IMG/VR virus record: IMGVR_UViG_3300046804_001017
Location: 1-23,986 of that record
DNA length: 23,986 bases
From: a virus
Direction: 5' to 3' (one strand)
The notes under the pieces: model-generated
Database searches by the model: none
Told to the model about the DNA's origin: nothing
What the model saw: only the letters and a program-made list of their open reading frames with translations
Part shown: positions 5,421 through 13,970 of the stretch, piece after piece
How the letters are laid out: every line of letters begins with the position of its first letter
Numbering within the stretch: position 1 is the stretch's first letter
Program-made: the position numbers and the translations under genes

Positions 5421-6059
5421 ATGGCATATAGTCGTGGTACATCGACCAACATTATTGTTGGTGCAGCGGCACTTTTCGTTGCAGATACAACCCTAACTCC
5501 AGGTACTCTTGAGGCGTTTGATACTGAAGTATCATTTAGAGAAACACTCTCAAATGATGCAGCATATACAAACGTAGGTTACACCATGAACGGTCTTGAA
5601 TTGCAGTTCCAACCAGACTTCGGTGAAGTTCAGGTAGACCAAATTCTTGACGTTGCTAAACTTTACAAGCAGGGTATGCAAGTTAATCTTGCAACTGCTT
5701 TCGCTGAAGCAACTTTGGAAAATCTCCTTCTTGCTTTGGCATTTGATTCATCAGAACTTACTGGTTCAAAGGCATCTAACGCAGGACAGGTATTGAACCT
5801 TTCTGCAGGTGATATCGGTGAATGTCCAGTAGAGCGTGGAATCGTTGCTGTTGGACCAGGCACAGGTGACTGCGTAGACTCTCCATATGTGGAGCGTGTT
5901 TACACAGCATACCGTGCACTCTCAATTGAGAATGTAACTGTTTCAGCAAAGCGTGACGAAGCATCAATGTTCGAAGTTTCATTCCGTCTTCTTCCAGAAG
6001 ATACTTCAGGCTCATATGGTAAGATCGTTGATCGTACTTTCGGAGATCTACTTTCTTAA
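5421..6059 (+). CDS. Major tail protein (tail tube)
   Basis: A 212-residue protein that should stack into the tail tube. It is strand-rich, with GYTMNGLELQFQPDFGEVQV and QILDVAKLYKQGMQVNLATA near the middle and a C-terminal strand pair (ALSIENVTVSAKRDEASMFE, VSFRLLPED) typical of tube-protein folds. It lies between the tail terminator and tail chaperone genes and before the tape measure, the standard place. The ribosome site AGAGGTGA lies just upstream. Codons such as CGT, AAC and GTT are favoured and ATA is rare, as in the capsid gene, indicating strong expression. An intrinsic terminator follows directly, isolating it as its own transcript block. Confidence 0.85.
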   Translation: MAYSRGTSTNIIVGAAALFVADTTLTPGTLEAFDTEVSFRETLSNDAAYTNVGYTMNGLELQFQPDFGEVQVDQILDVAKLYKQGMQVNLATAFAEATLENLLLALAFDSSELTGSKASNAGQVLNLSAGDIGECPVERGIVAVGPGTGDCVDSPYVERVYTAYRALSIENVTVSAKRDEASMFEVSFRLLPEDTSGSYGKIVDRTFGDLLS

Positions 6060-6079
6060 TTATTTTAAGAATCAGCATG

Positions 6080-6112
6080 GCCCATCTCTTAGGAGGTGGG
6101 CTTTGTTGTTTT
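6080..6112 (+). terminator. Rho-independent terminator after major tail gene
   Basis: A 9-bp stem (6080-6088 with 6093-6101, GCCCATCTC with GAGGTGGGC, one T-G pair) around a TTAG tetraloop is followed by TTTGTTGTTTT. It is a canonical intrinsic terminator and the clearest in the window. Confidence 0.88.
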
Positions 6113-6113
6113 A

Positions 6114-6122
6114 TGGTAGAAT
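6114..6122 (+). promoter_or_regulatory. Extended -10 promoter giving near-leaderless transcript
   Basis: TGGTAGAAT (-10 TAGAAT at 6117-6122) begins 2 nt after the terminator T-tract. Nine bases separate the -10 from the ATG at 6132, so a start 6-8 nt after the -10 leaves at most about 3 nt of leader. No Shine-Dalgarno precedes the ATG. No -35 is apparent. Confidence 0.6.
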
Positions 6123-6131
6123 AGAATTTCT

Positions 6132-6827
6132 ATGGCAACTACAGTATATAATACACAAATAATACAATTATTTGATGGAACAGAATTAGAGATAGTACCA
6201 CTAAAGATTAAATATCTTCGTGAGTTTATGATAGTTTTTAATAATATTAAAGATGCCAAAGATGATAATGAAGCCATGCAGGTTCTTGTAGAATGTACAA
6301 GGGTTTGTATGAAGCAATACTATCCAGAGATATCGGGTTCTTTTGAACAGGTTGAAGATAATGTAGATATGCCAACTATATATAAGGTGTTAGATGTTGC
6401 TGCTGGAATTAAAATTAATAAGGCTTCAAATGAACCAGTTAAAGATCAGGCTGAAAAAAGTGGAGACACCTGGGAAACTCTTGATTTAGCAAAACTTGAA
6501 TCAGAGGTTTTTTTGTTGGGTATTTGGAAAGACTATCAAGAATTAGAGAAGTCAATGTCTATGCCAGAACTTCTGGCTACCTTAGAGGTAAGTAGAGAAT
6601 TAGACTATACAGAAAAGAAGTTCTTGGCTGCCATTCAAGGGGTTGATCTGGATGCACAGTCTCAACCAGAAAAGGGTCAGCAAGAGTGGGAAAATCTCAA
6701 GGCTAGAGTATTTAGCAAGGGTAAAACTAATGACGCCAATGATGTATTATCTTTGCAAGGACCAAAAGCAAAGAGTTTAGGGTTCGGAATCGGGAATGGT
6801 CTTGATTACGAAGATTTAACAAAATAA
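6132..6827 (+). CDS. Long tail assembly chaperone (G-T type fusion)
   Basis: A 231-residue protein. Residues 1-100 (DGTELEIVPLKIKYLREFM, LVEC, DMPTIYKVLDVAAGI) are clearly paralogous to the short gene at 6869. About 38 of 95 positions are identical by eye with a single one-residue gap. Residues about 105-231 are an extra domain including SMSMPELLATLEVSRELDYT and FLAAIQGVDLD, of the kind seen in the frameshifted T part of actinophage chaperones. Such proteins coat the tape measure during tail assembly and recruit tube subunits. Here the long form is a complete gene; no slippery site is needed. It has its own weak-looking promoter, no Shine-Dalgarno, and many ATA and AGR codons, suggesting low expression. 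Confidence 0.75.
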   Translation: MATTVYNTQIIQLFDGTELEIVPLKIKYLREFMIVFNNIKDAKDDNEAMQVLVECTRVCMKQYYPEISGSFEQVEDNVDMPTIYKVLDVAAGIKINKASNEPVKDQAEKSGDTWETLDLAKLESEVFLLGIWKDYQELEKSMSMPELLATLEVSRELDYTEKKFLAAIQGVDLDAQSQPEKGQQEWENLKARVFSKGKTNDANDVLSLQGPKAKSLGFGIGNGLDYEDLTK

Positions 6828-6844
6828 GCGTTTTATGCTATAAT
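6816..6844 (+). promoter_or_regulatory. Strong promoter with -35 and extended -10 (short chaperone, tape measure)
   Basis: TTAACA (6816-6821), a 17-bp spacer and TGCTATAAT (-10 TATAAT at 6839-6844) make the best sigma70/SigA-type promoter in the window. The -35 lies inside the last codons of the long chaperone. Predicted start is near 6851, leaving about 18 nt that carry AGGAGG 5 nt before the ATG at 6869. It probably drives the short chaperone, tape measure and tail-tip genes. Confidence 0.8.
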
Positions 6845-6868
6845 TGATTTAACTTATAGGAGGAACAA

Positions 6869-7192
6869 ATGGCAACAACCACGCATGAGGCTGAAAAAGT
6901 CACTCTCATTGATGGAACTATTATCAACGTTCGTCCACTTAAGATCTCACTTCTTCGTCCATTTATGAAGAAGTTTGAAGGGGTGGCAAAAGTTGCGGAA
7001 GATAACGAGAAGTCTATGACTCTACTCGTAGAATGTGTTCAAATCGCTATGGAGCAGTACAAGCCAGAATTAGCAGGAGACATTCAAAAGTTGGAAGAGG
7101 TGCTTGACCTTCCAACAGTATACAAGATTGTAGAGGCAGCATCAGGTATTAACTTGACAGCAATCTCAGACGTTCTTAGTACACAAGAATAA
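6869..7192 (+). CDS. Short tail assembly chaperone (G type)
   Basis: A 107-residue paralogue of the N-terminal part of the preceding gene: it shares MATT, DGT, PLKI, LR-FM, DNE, LVEC, QY-PE, PT-YK and GI in the same order, and ends where the long protein's extra domain begins. Chaperones of this class are needed in excess over the long form. The sequence agrees: consensus-like promoter, AGGAGG (6858-6863) 5 nt before the ATG, and optimised codons (both Arg are CGT, no ATA among nine Ile), in contrast to its long neighbour. It lies just before the tape measure gene, as such chaperones do. No downstream frame extension or slippery sequence is seen. Confidence 0.75.
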   Translation: MATTTHEAEKVTLIDGTIINVRPLKISLLRPFMKKFEGVAKVAEDNEKSMTLLVECVQIAMEQYKPELAGDIQKLEEVLDLPTVYKIVEAASGINLTAISDVLSTQE

Positions 7193-7217
7193 CTATATAA
7201 TAAAAGAGGTGTGATAG

Positions 7218-10200
7218 ATGGCTGATGTTAATGCCAATATTGGCGTAAATATTGACACGTCATTAGCATTAGCACAACTTAAGTCTCTTCAGAGGCAGAT
7301 ATCACAGTTCCATACATCTATAGCAAGATCCAGCGAAACTGCTGCCCTTGCTCAGAAGTCTCTGCAGAAGAACTTCCTAAATAGCGTAAATGCTATTGGG
7401 TCGTTCTCTGCTGAACTTCGAACAGTAAAAACAACTACAGAATCATTTACAGCATCTCTTGAGGGCAATAAGTTCTCAATGCGAGAATATTTCCGTTATG
7501 CTGGCGGTGCTACAAAAACCTTTGGTCGTTTATTTAAATCAGAGTTTGACACAATTGGCAAGGTAGCAGAAGAACGTGTTAAAAGATTACAAACCCAATA
7601 TATTAAAATGGGTCGTGATGCTAGTGGAGCAATGCAGGCAATCTCCATTACACCAACATCTTTGGACATGGAAAACTATGGTACTAAAACAGCCATAGCA
7701 GCACAGAAACAAGCACTGTTTAATCAATTAATGAAACAAGGTTCTACCAACCTTTTAAATTTTGGTAAAAATACACAATGGGCAGGACGCCAACTTATGG
7801 TTGGTTTTACTATCCCGCTTGCCATGGTTGGATCTGCAGCAACAAAAACTTTCATGGATATGGAAGCCCAGGCACTTAAGTTTAAGAAGGTTTATGGAGA
7901 TTTATTTACTCCAAAGGAAGAAACACAACAAGCATTAGATAATATTATGGAACTTGGTAAACAGTTTACTAAGTATGGAGTTGCTGTTTCTGATACTGTT
8001 GGTTTGGCAGCAGATGCTGCAGCAGCAGGTTTTAGTGGACTTGATCTACAGAGACAGACCACTGAAGCAACCAGGTTGTCTGTTCTTGGACAGATTGATA
8101 ATCAAAAAGCACTTGAAACAACAATATCTTTACAAAATGCATTTGGAATGTCAAGTGATAAATTAGCAGATAGCATTAACTTTTTAAACGCAGTAGAAAA
8201 CCAAACAGTTGTATCTCTTGATGATATTACTACTGCTATTCCAAAAGTTGCTCCAGTTATTCAACAACTTGGCGGAGATGTAAAAGATTTAACATTCTTC
8301 TTGGCAGCAATGAAAGAGGGAGGAATCAATGCTTCAGAAGGTGCAAACGCACTTAAGTCTGGTCTTGCTGCACTGATTAATCCAACAGGCAAAGCATCTG
8401 CAATGCTTGCACAATTTGGAATTAATGCTAATGAGATTGTTACAAAAAATAAAGGTAATCTTAAGGCTACAGTTATAGAATTTGCAACAGCGCTTAATCA
8501 GTTAGACCCATTAAATAGGGCACAAGCAATTGAGCAAATGTTTGGCAAGTTCCAGTTTGCTCGTTTATCTACACTATTTGCAAACGTTGCTAAAGATGGA
8601 AATCAGGCAGCCCGTGTTCTTAATTTAGCAAACGCATCTGTTGAAGAACTATCTGCTTTATCTGAACAAGAATTAGGAATGACTGCAGATTCAGCAATGA
8701 ATAAATTTAAAAAGACTGTTGAAGATTTAAAGGCCGCCCTTATTCCAGTTGGTAAATCATTCCTTGAAGCGGTAACTCCTATTGTAGAGTTTGTTGGCGG
8801 CATTCTTGAAAAGTTTGCAGATCTTTCTTCTGGAACTAAAAAAGCAATAACACTTATGGTTACTGTTATTGGTGGCCTTGGACCTATATTGCTTATGACT
8901 TTTGGTTTGCTTGCTAATGGCGTAGCAAATATAATTAAACTATTTTTAACACTTCGTAATGGATATTTAAGATTAACTGGACAGTCTCAAGTTCTTGGAG
9001 AACAAACTCAATATCTTACAGCAGAACAGATTGACGCTGCAGCAGCATCGCATTCACTTAACCAAGCACATGCAACTCTAACACAACAGTTTACTGCAGA
9101 AGCATCAGCAGTTAATCAACTTATAGCAGCATATCAAGCAGCAACAAGAGCGGGAGCAGCATTTGCAGCCGCTAATCCTGGAGCAATGCTTCCAAGACCA
9201 CGAGGGTATGCTGAAGGAGTTATTAGTGTTCCAGGAAATGGTAAAGGCGATACAGTTCCTGCGATGCTTACCCCAGGAGAAGCAGTTATTCCTGCAGCAA
9301 TGGCAAAGAAGTATGCACCACTTATTAATGGAATGATTGCTGGAAATATTCCAGGATATGAATCAGGGCTTAAAGTAGCAGGTATATCAGCACCACCAGG
9401 AACACAGTTTGGGCATATAACAACAACTGTAGAAACAACAGTAGGGGCATTCTTAGCATCATTAAAAAATATGTCAGCAGACATGCAAGAGCAGCACCGC
9501 TCTACAATTCATTATTTACAACAACTTGCAGATCTTGGACTTCAAACAAAGAAATTAACAACATATAGTGGTCTAGGTGCATTCCAAGGAGAAGCATTAA
9601 ATGAAGCATTAGGTAAGGGTGGAAGACAAGTTCCAAAGGCTATGATTCTTAAGGATATGGCAGAGATTGGAATTAAACGTTGGGAACCAGCACTTGCAAT
9701 TGGTGGAGCAAAACTAGAAGAAGTTAATACTGAATTAGTTGCATATGAAACATCATTAATAGAAGCAATAAACGATTTTAAGAATATGCACGGCAAAACA
9801 ACAATGTCTGGTCAAGAACTTGAAGCGCTTGAAAAAAGTATTAGAGAAACTCTTCCAGCATCATCAAAATTAAAACAAGCACTTGATCTTGCAGCAGATA
9901 CAATTACAGAATTTAGAGTTTCATTAAATAAAGCAGACTTTGAACAAATTGCAAAGGTAGCACCAGGCGCAATTGTTCCTGGGGTTCCTGGACAAGCATC
10001 TTCTGGCGGAGTAATGATTACTGGAGTTTCTGGTAAGCAAAGAAAAGTAAGAGGTAAGGGAGATAATCTTAAGGCAAGAGTTCCAGGGGGCATGGGTACC
10101 TATTCCGCTATTGCCGCAGCAGAAGCAACAGATTTAACAAATGATTTAATTGTAGCAACAGCAAGAGCAGCAGGAACTCAATCTCCATCAAAGAAAACAA

Positions 10201-13200
10201 TTCCAATTGGAGAAGATATTGCAAGAGGCCTTGAAGTTGGAATGTCAAATCGTAAAGATGATGTTGCAACAGCAGGATCAAACCTTGGAAAGGCTGCTAC
10301 ACAAAGCACAAGCCGTGGAGCAAGAACAGGTGTTATTAGTCCAGATCAACCTTATAAAATTGAAAAAACACGAGGTGGTGTAACTGTAGGAGAAGTAGCA
10401 GGAAGAGCACCTATAAGTCCAGATATAAAGCAAAAGGCTATTGAAAATGCAAAAATTACTCAAACTGCTACTGATAGATTAAAAGGTCTTGATAGAAATA
10501 TTATGGGAGCATCTTTTGCTATATCCAGTTTATCTGCATTAGCATCAATGTCTGGTGGAGCCCTTGGAAATATGGCTGGGGTAATTTCTAAAGTTACTGG
10601 AGCCTTATTTGCACTACAAGCAATTACTGGTTTACTTACACAAACAAATATGCTTGCACTTGTTCAAAAAAGAGCAGAAGCATCAGGGCTTATTGCTGGC
10701 AATGTTCTTACAAAAAAGATGGGCTTAAATACAACACTATTTTCTGGTGGAATAAAGAAACTTCTTCCTAATTTATTAAACTTTGGAAAGGTGCTTGCAA
10801 GATTCCTTGGTCCAGTTGGACTAGCAATTACAGCAATAACTGCAACAGTATCTATTATTAAACTAGTAAATGCTGCAAGAGAACGTGAAAAATTAAAAAT
10901 TGAAGGTCTTGGCAACGCAGCATTTATTGCTGGAGATAAACTAAAAACTCTTGGTGATTTCTTTGGAATAGTTCCACAAAAATTTGGTTTTGAAAATCTG
11001 CCAAAGGGGGCAGGTAAAGGTTTAACTGTAGGTGCAACACAAGCAGCAAAAGTTGCTGAACTAAGGGGAACTGAAGGATTTCAAAAAGATTTTGGAAAAG
11101 ATATACAGTCATTAAAGGCTGCATCAAACAAACAAGCAGAACTTGTATTTAAATCTTTAATAGTTCAATTGCGTGGAAGAGGTTTTGCAGAAGACCAGGT
11201 AAAAACAATTATTCAAGCACTACAAGAAGAGTCTGGCAAAACAGACGTAAAAATTGATTTTAAGTCTCTTAAGTTAAATACTAAAGAAGGTCAAAAAGAA
11301 CTTAAAGCAACAGTTGGAACTATGCTTAATTCTTATTCAAAACAATTTTCAAAGGGATATTCTTCTAGCGTTGGCTCAGCAGTAAGTTATGCAACAGGAC
11401 AAACAGTAACATGGGTTAATGAAAATCTTTCTAAAGGTCTTGAAAAATCAATTAATACTACATCAAAATCAATTACAGGTTTAATTGGTGGAATTGAAGC
11501 AGACTTAAAGGCTGGAAGAATTAGTGCTGCAGAATTTTCTGAAGCATTTGGAATAATAAATACAAAAATAGCATCAATGCCACCTGCATCAGGAATGCTA
11601 TTGATTGATTCAATATTAAAAACAATGGGTCCAGATGCTGTTAAGGCTGGTAAAGGTTTTACAAATGTATCCGATAGACTATTAGTTCTTCAGGCAGTAT
11701 CTTTAGGGGCAATAGGGCCAGATAGTCCACTTATAAAAGGACTAAGAAATATTGCAGACCCAGAAGCATATGCAAAAGCAAAGGCTGGAATTGAAAGTTT
11801 AATATCATCTAAGTTAGTTGATCAAGCAAAAGCCGCTGCTGCAGAAATTAAAGCATTTCAAGAAACCGCTAATGCAACTACTGAAAAAAGTCCATTTCAA
11901 TTAGCAGTTGATCAACTTAAACAACAAAGATCAGAGATGCTTAATACTGTTAAATCTTATGGAATGTTAAGAAAAGCAGGAGTAGGTGCTGGCAAAGCAT
12001 TTGCAATAGCAAAAGATCCAATTTTGGCTGCTGCGTTGGCAAGTACTAAGGTTGGAACTCAAAAATGGAAAGATTTAATTAAGTTAATTAAAGAAACTGA
12101 TGCAGCATTGATAAAAAGTAAACTTACTGAACTAAGTGCTGATATAGATTATACAAAACAGTTTACTGCCATTGTTCCAGTACTTAAAAAAGCAGGGCTA
12201 AATGCAGAAGAAATTCAAAATATTTTTGCAGATCCAGCATTTGCACAACAGTTTATTAAAAACATAAAAAATGGCAAAGTCAATATGGAAGAGTTAAATA
12301 AGATTATTACCAAAACTATGCAAGATAGAAATGCTAAACTTTCATTTGAGACTTCTTTAAAAACAGATGATGAATTATTTAATGATGCTATGGATAAAGC
12401 AAATGATATGTTTAATAAAATTCAAGCAGGCATAGAAGTACAGTACGCTGGACAGATTAAAGCAGGAGAAGATGCTGTAACTAAAGCACAAAATAATATT
12501 GATACTATTCAAAAAGAAATTGATGGAATTCAAACAAAAATTAATGAAAAACAACGTGATATTGAAATTAATATTACTAGAAAAATTGAAGAATATCAAG
12601 CATCAATTGATAAACTTCAAGAATCTATAAAAGAAAGATTTGATCTTCCACTTGCTAAACTTTCTGATGAAGGAGATATTTTATCAAATACATTATCTTT
12701 AATTGATCGTCAAGAATCTGCAATCAATAAAAAATATGATCAACAGGCTGCAGCACTCACAAAAATTTCTGAGATTAACTCTGAAATTGCTGGACAACAA
12801 AAGCAACAGTTAGGTTTAGCAGATGCACTTTCTCGTGGTGATATAGCAGCCGCTGCTGCCGCAGCACAAGAAATGAGAGCAACTGCAGCAGCAGGTGCAC
12901 AAGGAAGACAAACTGGAATTCTTGAGGCTGCTCGTACTGCAGAACTTGCTGGAGTCACAGTTAATGGAATGACAAGAGCACAAATTGAAGAGCGTCAATT
13001 TCAGATATCACAACAAAGTTTTGCATTACAACAACAACGTAAAATTGTTGAGCAACAAATTGCAGATATTGAAGCAAAGCAAATTGCACCATTAACTGCA
13101 CAAAGAGTTATTGCTGAAAAAGCAATTCGTGATGAAGAAGATAAAATTTATCAAATACAAGTTAGTAGACTAGTTCCTGCTCAAGCAGCATTAACAAAGG

Positions 13201-13970
13201 CTGAAGGTTTACTAAAGGCTACACAAGATAAACTAAAGGCTGATCTTGATATTATTGAGCAAGATAAAAAATATTGGGCTGATGCTAAGGTTGCAAGAGA
13301 TTTAGCAACCATTGATCAAGAAGAGTATAAGAAAGTTTTAACTGAAACATCTTCTGTAGCAAAAGGTGTACTTGATAAAATTCTTGCACTTAATACAACA
13401 GTAAGAACAACACACATTATTAATACTGTTTATACATCATCAGGAAGCACAAGTTCGATTGGAACGCCATTTGGACAGGCAGGTTCATCGGGAAGCACAG
13501 GAGCAACTGGAACACCATTTGGACAGGCAGGTTCATCGGGAACTACAAAGAAGATGTATGGTGGAAAGATTATGCCAATGAACTATGGTGGAATGGTTCC
13601 TAAATATATGGGTATTGGTGGTAAGGTTGGCTCTGATACAGTTCCTGCCATGCTAACCCCTGGCGAATTTGTAATGAATAAGGCTGCAACTAAACGTTTT
13701 GGTCCAATGTTAGAAAATATGAATAATTCTAAGTATCCATCTATGATTAAAGATTTGACTCCAACAACCTATACAAATGTTAATTCATCTATGGTAACAC
13801 CTATTGTTAATAATATATCTACAAGTGTCAACGATAACTCTAGCACCATGTATAATTATAATGTAGGAATTAATGTTAATGACTCTAATGCAAGTTCTAA
13901 TGATATTGCAAGGGCAGTTATTGGTCAAATTAAATATATTGATTCCCAGAGAATTAGAGGACAAAGATAA
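7218..13970 (+). CDS. Tape measure protein
   Basis: At 2250 residues it is the largest gene here and sets tail length; at about 0.15 nm per residue the tail would be some 340 nm. Residues about 200-420 resemble the TP901-type tape measure core (FMDMEAQALKFKKVYGDLF, AADAAAAGFSG, MKEGGINASEGANALKSGLA). Hydrophobic, membrane-prone segments lie at about 543-580, 1096-1140 and 1196-1217. The recurring tape measure motif DTVPAMLTPGE occurs twice (678-688 and 2140-2150), and QSPSKKTIPIGEDIARGLE lies near 988. Residues about 1745-2050 are a long coiled coil. GTPFGQAGS is repeated with a 16-residue period at 2082 and 2098. No peptidoglycan hydrolase domain is evident. Start ATG has AGAGG 8 nt upstream. 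The last base of the stop is the first base of the next ATG. Confidence 0.92.
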   Translation: MADVNANIGVNIDTSLALAQLKSLQRQISQFHTSIARSSETAALAQKSLQKNFLNSVNAIGSFSAELRTVKTTTESFTASLEGNKFSMREYFRYAGGATKTFGRLFKSEFDTIGKVAEERVKRLQTQYIKMGRDASGAMQAISITPTSLDMENYGTKTAIAAQKQALFNQLMKQGSTNLLNFGKNTQWAGRQLMVGFTIPLAMVGSAATKTFMDMEAQALKFKKVYGDLFTPKEETQQALDNIMELGKQFTKYGVAVSDTVGLAADAAAAGFSGLDLQRQTTEATRLSVLGQIDNQKALETTISLQNAFGMSSDKLADSINFLNAVENQTVVSLDDITTAIPKVAPVIQQLGGDVKDLTFFLAAMKEGGINASEGANALKSGLAALINPTGKASAMLAQFGINANEIVTKNKGNLKATVIEFATALNQLDPLNRAQAIEQMFGKFQFARLSTLFANVAKDGNQAARVLNLANASVEELSALSEQELGMTADSAMNKFKKTVEDLKAALIPVGKSFLEAVTPIVEFVGGILEKFADLSSGTKKAITLMVTVIGGLGPILLMTFGLLANGVANIIKLFLTLRNGYLRLTGQSQVLGEQTQYLTAEQIDAAAASHSLNQAHATLTQQFTAEASAVNQLIAAYQAATRAGAAFAAANPGAMLPRPRGYAEGVISVPGNGKGDTVPAMLTPGEAVIPAAMAKKYAPLINGMIAGNIPGYESGLKVAGISAPPGTQFGHITTTVETTVGAFLASLKNMSADMQEQHRSTIHYLQQLADLGLQTKKLTTYSGLGAFQGEALNEALGKGGRQVPKAMILKDMAEIGIKRWEPALAIGGAKLEEVNTELVAYETSLIEAINDFKNMHGKTTMSGQELEALEKSIRETLPASSKLKQALDLAADTITEFRVSLNKADFEQIAKVAPGAIVPGVPGQASSGGVMITGVSGKQRKVRGKGDNLKARVPGGMGTYSAIAAAEATDLTNDLIVATARAAGTQSPSKKTIPIGEDIARGLEVGMSNRKDDVATAGSNLGKAATQSTSRGARTGVISPDQPYKIEKTRGGVTVGEVAGRAPISPDIKQKAIENAKITQTATDRLKGLDRNIMGASFAISSLSALASMSGGALGNMAGVISKVTGALFALQAITGLLTQTNMLALVQKRAEASGLIAGNVLTKKMGLNTTLFSGGIKKLLPNLLNFGKVLARFLGPVGLAITAITATVSIIKLVNAAREREKLKIEGLGNAAFIAGDKLKTLGDFFGIVPQKFGFENLPKGAGKGLTVGATQAAKVAELRGTEGFQKDFGKDIQSLKAASNKQAELVFKSLIVQLRGRGFAEDQVKTIIQALQEESGKTDVKIDFKSLKLNTKEGQKELKATVGTMLNSYSKQFSKGYSSSVGSAVSYATGQTVTWVNENLSKGLEKSINTTSKSITGLIGGIEADLKAGRISAAEFSEAFGIINTKIASMPPASGMLLIDSILKTMGPDAVKAGKGFTNVSDRLLVLQAVSLGAIGPDSPLIKGLRNIADPEAYAKAKAGIESLISSKLVDQAKAAAAEIKAFQETANATTEKSPFQLAVDQLKQQRSEMLNTVKSYGMLRKAGVGAGKAFAIAKDPILAAALASTKVGTQKWKDLIKLIKETDAALIKSKLTELSADIDYTKQFTAIVPVLKKAGLNAEEIQNIFADPAFAQQFIKNIKNGKVNMEELNKIITKTMQDRNAKLSFETSLKTDDELFNDAMDKANDMFNKIQAGIEVQYAGQIKAGEDAVTKAQNNIDTIQKEIDGIQTKINEKQRDIEINITRKIEEYQASIDKLQESIKERFDLPLAKLSDEGDILSNTLSLIDRQESAINKKYDQQAAALTKISEINSEIAGQQKQQLGLADALSRGDIAAAAAAAQEMRATAAAGAQGRQTGILEAARTAELAGVTVNGMTRAQIEERQFQISQQSFALQQQRKIVEQQIADIEAKQIAPLTAQRVIAEKAIRDEEDKIYQIQVSRLVPAQAALTKAEGLLKATQDKLKADLDIIEQDKKYWADAKVARDLATIDQEEYKKVLTETSSVAKGVLDKILALNTTVRTTHIINTVYTSSGSTSSIGTPFGQAGSSGSTGATGTPFGQAGSSGTTKKMYGGKIMPMNYGGMVPKYMGIGGKVGSDTVPAMLTPGEFVMNKAATKRFGPMLENMNNSKYPSMIKDLTPTTYTNVNSSMVTPIVNNISTSVNDNSSTMYNYNVGINVNDSNASSNDIARAVIGQIKYIDSQRIRGQR
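13461..13535 (+). repeat. 48-bp-period direct repeat in tape measure (GTPFGQAGS units)
   Basis: Two near-identical 33-bp units start at 13461 and 13509 and differ by one base in the shared part. They encode GTPFGQAGSSG twice. A third, diverged copy of the same peptide lies in the gene at 18927. Confidence 0.8.

Follow-up and report, generated by a model that had tools for sequence, protein, structure and literature searches.

Duplicated genes, in place of a probable ancestral frameshift, for the short and long tail assembly chaperones in one branch of a phage family

In the window, by which is meant the entire 23,986-nucleotide stretch of viral DNA analyzed here, the short (N) and long (N-T) tail assembly chaperones are very probably the products of two separate genes, a duplication having replaced the frameshift by which such pairs are made and gene expression now setting the ratio of the two proteins. 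Few recoding events in phages are as widely conserved as the frameshift of the tail chaperone genes. The two-gene arrangement characterizes one large branch of this environmental phage family, whose relatives make both forms from a single gene by the frameshift. A more specific account, which is also favored here and with less assurance, holds that the frameshift was replaced once within a single phage family by duplication, in-frame fusion and re-engineered initiation, that the minor form is expressed from a leaderless promoter devoid of a -35 element, and that transcription and initiation together set the ratio. The locus had been singled out in a sequence-only reading of the window, the account of which was found to be largely right.

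The chaperone locus and its two proteins

All features of the locus lie on the plus strand. The upstream neighbor of the chaperone genes encodes a major tail protein of the Ig-domain type (5421-6059; phrog_2175, E 1.7e-32), and its position is that of the major tail protein gene in Streptomyces phages. An intrinsic terminator at 6079-6112, composed of a hairpin at 6079-6102 and a T-rich tail (-23.4 kcal/mol, z -4.4), separates this gene from the chaperone genes and lies directly upstream of the -10 element of the long gene. The hairpin had gone unremarked in the sequence-only reading. The long chaperone, a protein of 231 residues encoded by 6132-6827, contains an N (G-like) domain delineated by positions 6132-6434 and, in frame with it, a T domain delineated by 6471-6824. 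The short chaperone, encoded by 6869-7192, has 107 residues and consists of N alone. Both open reading frames are present exactly where they had been placed. The gene for the tape measure protein, the expected partner of the chaperones, follows directly at 7218-13970, as in Streptomyces phages; at 2250 residues its product is very long, which implies a long tail. Elsewhere in the window, amid the head and connector genes, positions 2248-2625 encode a 125-residue protein whose N terminus bears a Rho_N/SAP-like motif (PF07498, E 5e-5, narrowly below the cut-off).

The two chaperones had been judged by eye to be paralogues, with 38 of 95 positions identical in their N parts. An alignment with BLASTP bears this out, with 41 of 101 positions identical, 68 of 101 similar, one gap, and an E value of 1e-29. 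Residues 1-101 of the long protein match phrog_10504 (E 7e-26), as does the short protein, and residues 131-198 match phrog_10474 (E 8.5e-14). The N and T domains are homologous to annotated chaperones of the Stanwilliamsviridae type. The C-terminal part of the long protein, which had been proposed to be a T domain, is homologous to the T half that the Stanwilliamsviridae encode by frameshift in the -1 frame (tblastn E down to 8e-19). No Pfam family was found for either protein, and a nucleotide search of the phage records gave no match.

Models of the two proteins were prepared with AlphaFold2, with mean pLDDT values of 73.7 for the long and 74.6 for the short protein, the alignment for the latter being drawn from outside the annotated phage records. 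In keeping with the chaperone assignment of the sequence-only reading, both models match tail assembly chaperones among the predicted viral structures of BFVD. Both match the chaperone A0A6J5QVP5 (8e-5 for the long model, 1e-6 for the short), and the long model further matches the EfaCPT1 "tape measure chaperone frameshift protein" (0.025) and the chaperone of Arthrobacter phage Kitkat (0.029). The first solved structure listed for both models is the HK97 tail assembly chaperone, 2ob9, with weak Z scores of 4.3 and 4.4 (below 5). A Foldseek search against the PDB gave nothing significant, and a sequence search of the solved structures gave no credible match. On the basis of homology, and of its placement between the major tail protein and tape measure genes as in the Stanwilliamsviridae, the locus is assigned to the Stanwilliamsviridae type of chaperone and, because T is in frame, is placed outside of the frameshift class.

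Two exclusive arrangements across the family

A search of 50,697 phage records by tblastn returned 128 records for the N part, namely those of 127 Streptomyces phages and one weak match in a Bacillus phage (E 0.02), and 130 for the T part, from 127 Streptomyces and three Rhodococcus phages, each with the match at a single place. In the Streptomyces and Rhodococcus phages, N and T are separate open reading frames between the major tail protein and tape measure genes, with T in the -1 frame relative to N as judged by translation of the DNA. This split arrangement, with one N only, occurs in about 130 Streptomyces and Rhodococcus phages and in many IMG/VR contigs. The two frames frequently carry the annotation of tail assembly chaperone, and the records of Patelgo, Sham, and Francesca give them as a joined (frameshifted) gene. 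In many Stanwilliamsviridae records, for example those of Wofford, Karimac, Lululemon, and Blueeyedbeauty (L172, L173, L003, and L169 in our set of loci), the -1 frame is a "hypothetical protein"; on the basis of its frame, position, and homology it is the frameshifted half of the chaperone.

The Stanwilliamsviridae, which include the Streptomyces phages Moab, Patelgo, Lululemon, BillNye, and others, provide a close comparison. Their N and T are homologous to those of the window, and the gene order is the same, with the major tail protein followed by a terminator, the chaperones, and the tape measure protein. They differ in that there is one N gene, which has a Shine-Dalgarno sequence, T is reached by a -1 frameshift, and there is no second N.

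Hidden Markov models of N and T were used to sort 255 distinct loci from IMG/VR contigs, annotated phages, and the window, related sequences included. Among the loci with enough flanking DNA to judge, 128 have N and T in one open reading frame, and every one of these (128/128) has a second N just downstream. The remaining 114 judgeable loci are split, always with T in the -1 frame, and a second N is found downstream in none (0/114). Clustering at 80% leaves 45 fused and 47 split clusters and the exclusion unchanged. The two states are mutually exclusive, and the recurrence of the duplicate in all 128 distinct fused loci is far beyond chance. The search of related phages for the same duplicate, which the sequence-only reading had put forward as a check, found it in these loci. 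An assembly artefact was considered and ruled out, since the arrangement recurs in more than 100 distinct loci whose sequences have diverged. The 50,697 records yielded no cultured phage of the fused class, and two scans of GTDB genome contigs gave no host or prophage relative. The GC content fails to separate the classes (medians of 0.37 and 0.39). In one split locus, L265, the N open reading frame is broken in two.

Start signals, codon use, and ancestry

The short gene is preceded by a promoter at 6816-6844, in which TTAACA (6816-6821) and TATAAT (6839-6844, preceded by TGC) are separated by 17 nucleotides, and by the Shine-Dalgarno sequence AGGAGG at 6858-6863. These elements had been described in the sequence-only reading and were found as such, the promoter with 11 of 12 matches. 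The promoter begins within the 3' end of the long gene and is the sole promoter-like site on the plus strand of 5900-7400. Throughout the family, TGnTATAAT precedes the short gene in 114 of 117 cases, and 78% score at least 9 of 12 promoter matches. The short gene retains the ancestral -35 and TGnTATAAT elements together with a strong Shine-Dalgarno sequence.

The long gene begins quite differently. Its extended -10 element, TGGTAGAAT (6114-6122), reads TG-n-TAGAAT, with the hexamer at 6117-6122, and leaves 9 nucleotides to the ATG at 6132; neither a Shine-Dalgarno sequence nor a -35 element is present in the window. The weaker -10 and the missing Shine-Dalgarno sequence, both pointed out beforehand, hold across the family. 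The median pairing energy with the anti-Shine-Dalgarno sequence is -1.1 kcal/mol for the long genes as opposed to -10.2 kcal/mol for the short and split genes, whose upstream regions are of the leadered type. The long promoters have 2.0 of 6 matches to a -35 element against a background of 2.6, and are accordingly without one, and their -10 hexamers are mixed. A terminator-like hairpin lies upstream of 97% of the long and 95% of the split genes, as compared with 9% of the short genes and 10-14% of shuffled sequences.

Given that terminators leak, a longer transcript extending through the terminator could conceivably serve as the message of the long gene, with TGnTANNNT being incidental. This is improbable in light of how tightly that element is placed: of 118 distinct long genes, 106 have it 5-9 nucleotides ahead of the ATG. 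Within 3-12 nucleotides of the start it is found in 92% of the long genes as compared with 4% of shuffles, and at the starts of the short, split, major tail protein, and tape measure genes it occurs in 0-1%. In addition, the long genes combine TANNNT near the start with the absence of a Shine-Dalgarno sequence. A TANNNT element about 10-12 nucleotides upstream of the start, with no Shine-Dalgarno sequence, is the published mark of leaderless genes, which are common in Actinobacteria (PMC3160421). The long mRNA of the window is accordingly predicted, from its sequence, to be leaderless or to carry a leader of 0-3 nucleotides. The start of the long gene would then be of the leaderless type, a refinement of the earlier observation, which had gone no further than the missing Shine-Dalgarno sequence.

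Codon use follows the same division. Codon adaptation, scored with the major tail protein genes as the reference and with relatedness among the loci left in, is 0.62 for the short gene and 0.49 for the N part of the long gene, the short gene outscoring the long one in 40 of 42 pairs (Wilcoxon p 9e-12). The contrast of poorer codons in the long gene and better ones in the short gene, first drawn from the window, is borne out by the family as a whole and not by the window alone. In the split class the corresponding values are 0.63 for N and 0.53 for T, so that codon adaptation in the N half of the long gene has, since the duplication, dropped to that of the rarely translated T. This half, at 6132-6434 in the window and likewise in other long genes, is also much richer in A+T, with a median GC content of 0.29 against 0.38-0.39 in T and the short gene; the family medians for third-position GC are 0.19 and 0.27-0.32, respectively. 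The features that had been proposed to set the rates, namely the -10 element, the Shine-Dalgarno sequence, and the codons, hold family-wide, and from them the ratio of the two proteins would follow.

In a tree of the T domains, which is based on a short alignment and has many open forks, the fused loci are nested within the split ones with two changes of state, as compared with 31 in shuffles. In the tree of the N domains, the long copies form one clade (100/94) and the short copies another (99/98). The short clade is positioned among the split-class N genes, and the long clade, on a long branch, falls outside of the group that holds the short one. Forcing the two into a single clade costs 1.1 log units (p-AU 0.47). 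The nesting and the clade structure are consistent with a single switch from frameshift to duplication, the simplest history being that a frameshifting ancestor underwent one duplication; the long branch leaves room for the long N to be older. A far earlier duplication followed by losses was considered in view of that branch and set aside, a single clade of long and short copies not being rejected.

Since duplicated genes often diverge, the short protein might have taken on another role, as a regulator or a different chaperone, with the long protein alone doing the chaperone work. This is quite unlikely. The short protein is the conserved copy, with a median pairwise identity of 0.67 that is close to that of T (0.68), and it is the long N that has diverged (0.52). 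Moreover, the short gene groups with the N genes of the frameshift class, has kept its promoter and start signals, and is missing from none of the judgeable fused loci.

Loss of the slippery site and the proposed replacement

A canonical X XXY YYZ heptamer is found in frame in 74 of 83 distinct split overlaps, at or beside one conserved place. Most of these heptamers are CCCAAAC, CCCAAAT, or GGGAAAC, and four are AAATTTG. The nine remaining overlaps, of the Streptomyces-phage type, have CCCGGAA at that place, which is not a standard X XXY YYZ heptamer, and the shift site of these loci may be of another type. The N/T overlaps with CCCGGAA are those of L003, L167, L168, L172, L173, and L186-L189, and the isolates among L003-L173 belong to the Boydwoodruffvirinae where classified.

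The fused junction, examined in 137 genes, has no conserved heptamer, and CCCAAAY and GGGAAAC, the ancestral sites, are gone from its reading frame. The proposal that the duplicated locus does without a frameshift is upheld, its split relatives having a slippery site, and the account in the sequence-only reading passes both of the refutation tests set for it, this one and that of the T domain. In the window, T is in frame with N in one open reading frame rather than behind a lambda-type slippery site. A GGGAAA sequence at the fused junction was rejected as a candidate, for it derives from the TGGGAAA of a WE motif and is in the wrong frame. The only heptamer in this region of the window is an in-frame T TTT TTG (6505-6520) inside the EVFLLG motif of T.

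Slippage-type recoding can also serve to make a truncated form, as in dnaX. The long gene might in like manner still yield a truncated short form, through a frameshift or through slippage during transcription, with T TTT TTG (near 6510) or the A-run (near 6463) as the site and the duplication a mere addition. In-frame heptamers do occur in 49 of the 137 junction regions, and TTTTTTG is present in 28 genes, that of the window included. They are unconserved, however, and 88 of the 137 regions have no heptamer. A slip at TTTTTTG would lead to a stop inside T and hence to no protein of N alone, and with the ancestral heptamers out of frame, this explanation is very unlikely.

We propose instead that duplication replaced the frameshift. 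The ancestor, as in the Stanwilliamsviridae, would have made both forms from one gene by a -1 frameshift at CCCAAAY or GGGAAAC. A tandem duplication of this gene would then have arisen in one lineage, the upstream copy losing the slippery site and having N joined to T in frame, and the downstream copy being reduced to N with the ancestral promoter and Shine-Dalgarno sequence retained. The ratio formerly given by slippage would now be given by expression. According to this scheme, the long protein would be made from an extended -10-only promoter behind a terminator, from a leaderless message with poor codons, and the short protein from a consensus promoter with a strong Shine-Dalgarno sequence and good codons. 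Transcription from the long promoter probably continues into the short gene as well, the interval between the two showing no terminator. By analogy with lambda, the abundant short form would coat the tape measure protein, and the scarce long form would recruit the major tail protein.

In lambda, tail assembly depends critically on a 30:1 ratio of gpG to gpGT; the tape measure protein is bound by gpG in large and by gpGT in small numbers, and the major tail protein by T (PMC5009743). The window resembles the gpG/gpGT system in having a short N and a long N-T form beside the tape measure gene, but in lambda both arise from a single gene by a -1 frameshift. The two forms share N as they do in lambda, in the window by homology rather than by identity.

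The products of T4 genes 26 and 51, which we take to be a short and long chaperone pair, are paralogues (both PF12322, with E values of 9e-64 and 4e-52, and 2e-6 to each other), and their genes are divergently transcribed. T4-like phages resemble the window in having one short gene and one long fusion gene with no frameshift; they differ in being myoviruses with another protein family, PF12322, to which the window proteins have no match at E 1. PMC10885494, citing Vladimirov, Gautam and Davidson 2022, reports such a short gene and long fusion gene without frameshift for the T4-like phages, and duplicated short and long chaperones are accordingly known already. In the available descriptions of the Microbacterium phages of Cluster EA, some subclusters likewise lack an evident frameshift, but a fused long gene with a duplicated short gene is not described there. 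As far as the literature was searched, what is new here is that the switch took place within one family, apparently a single time, and that the minor gene has an apparently leaderless start.

Through these results, phrog_10504 and phrog_10474, two unnamed protein families, gain a likely function, and annotators are cautioned against forcing a frameshift join at fused loci. Both mechanisms occur in one family, with strict exclusion and a direction of change that can be read. This touches on the question of whether phages need the slip itself or the ratio alone, and suggests that recoding can be replaced by duplication of a gene and tuning of its start signals. If so, the sister lineages that survive with the old mechanism would make the cost and benefit of frameshifting directly testable.
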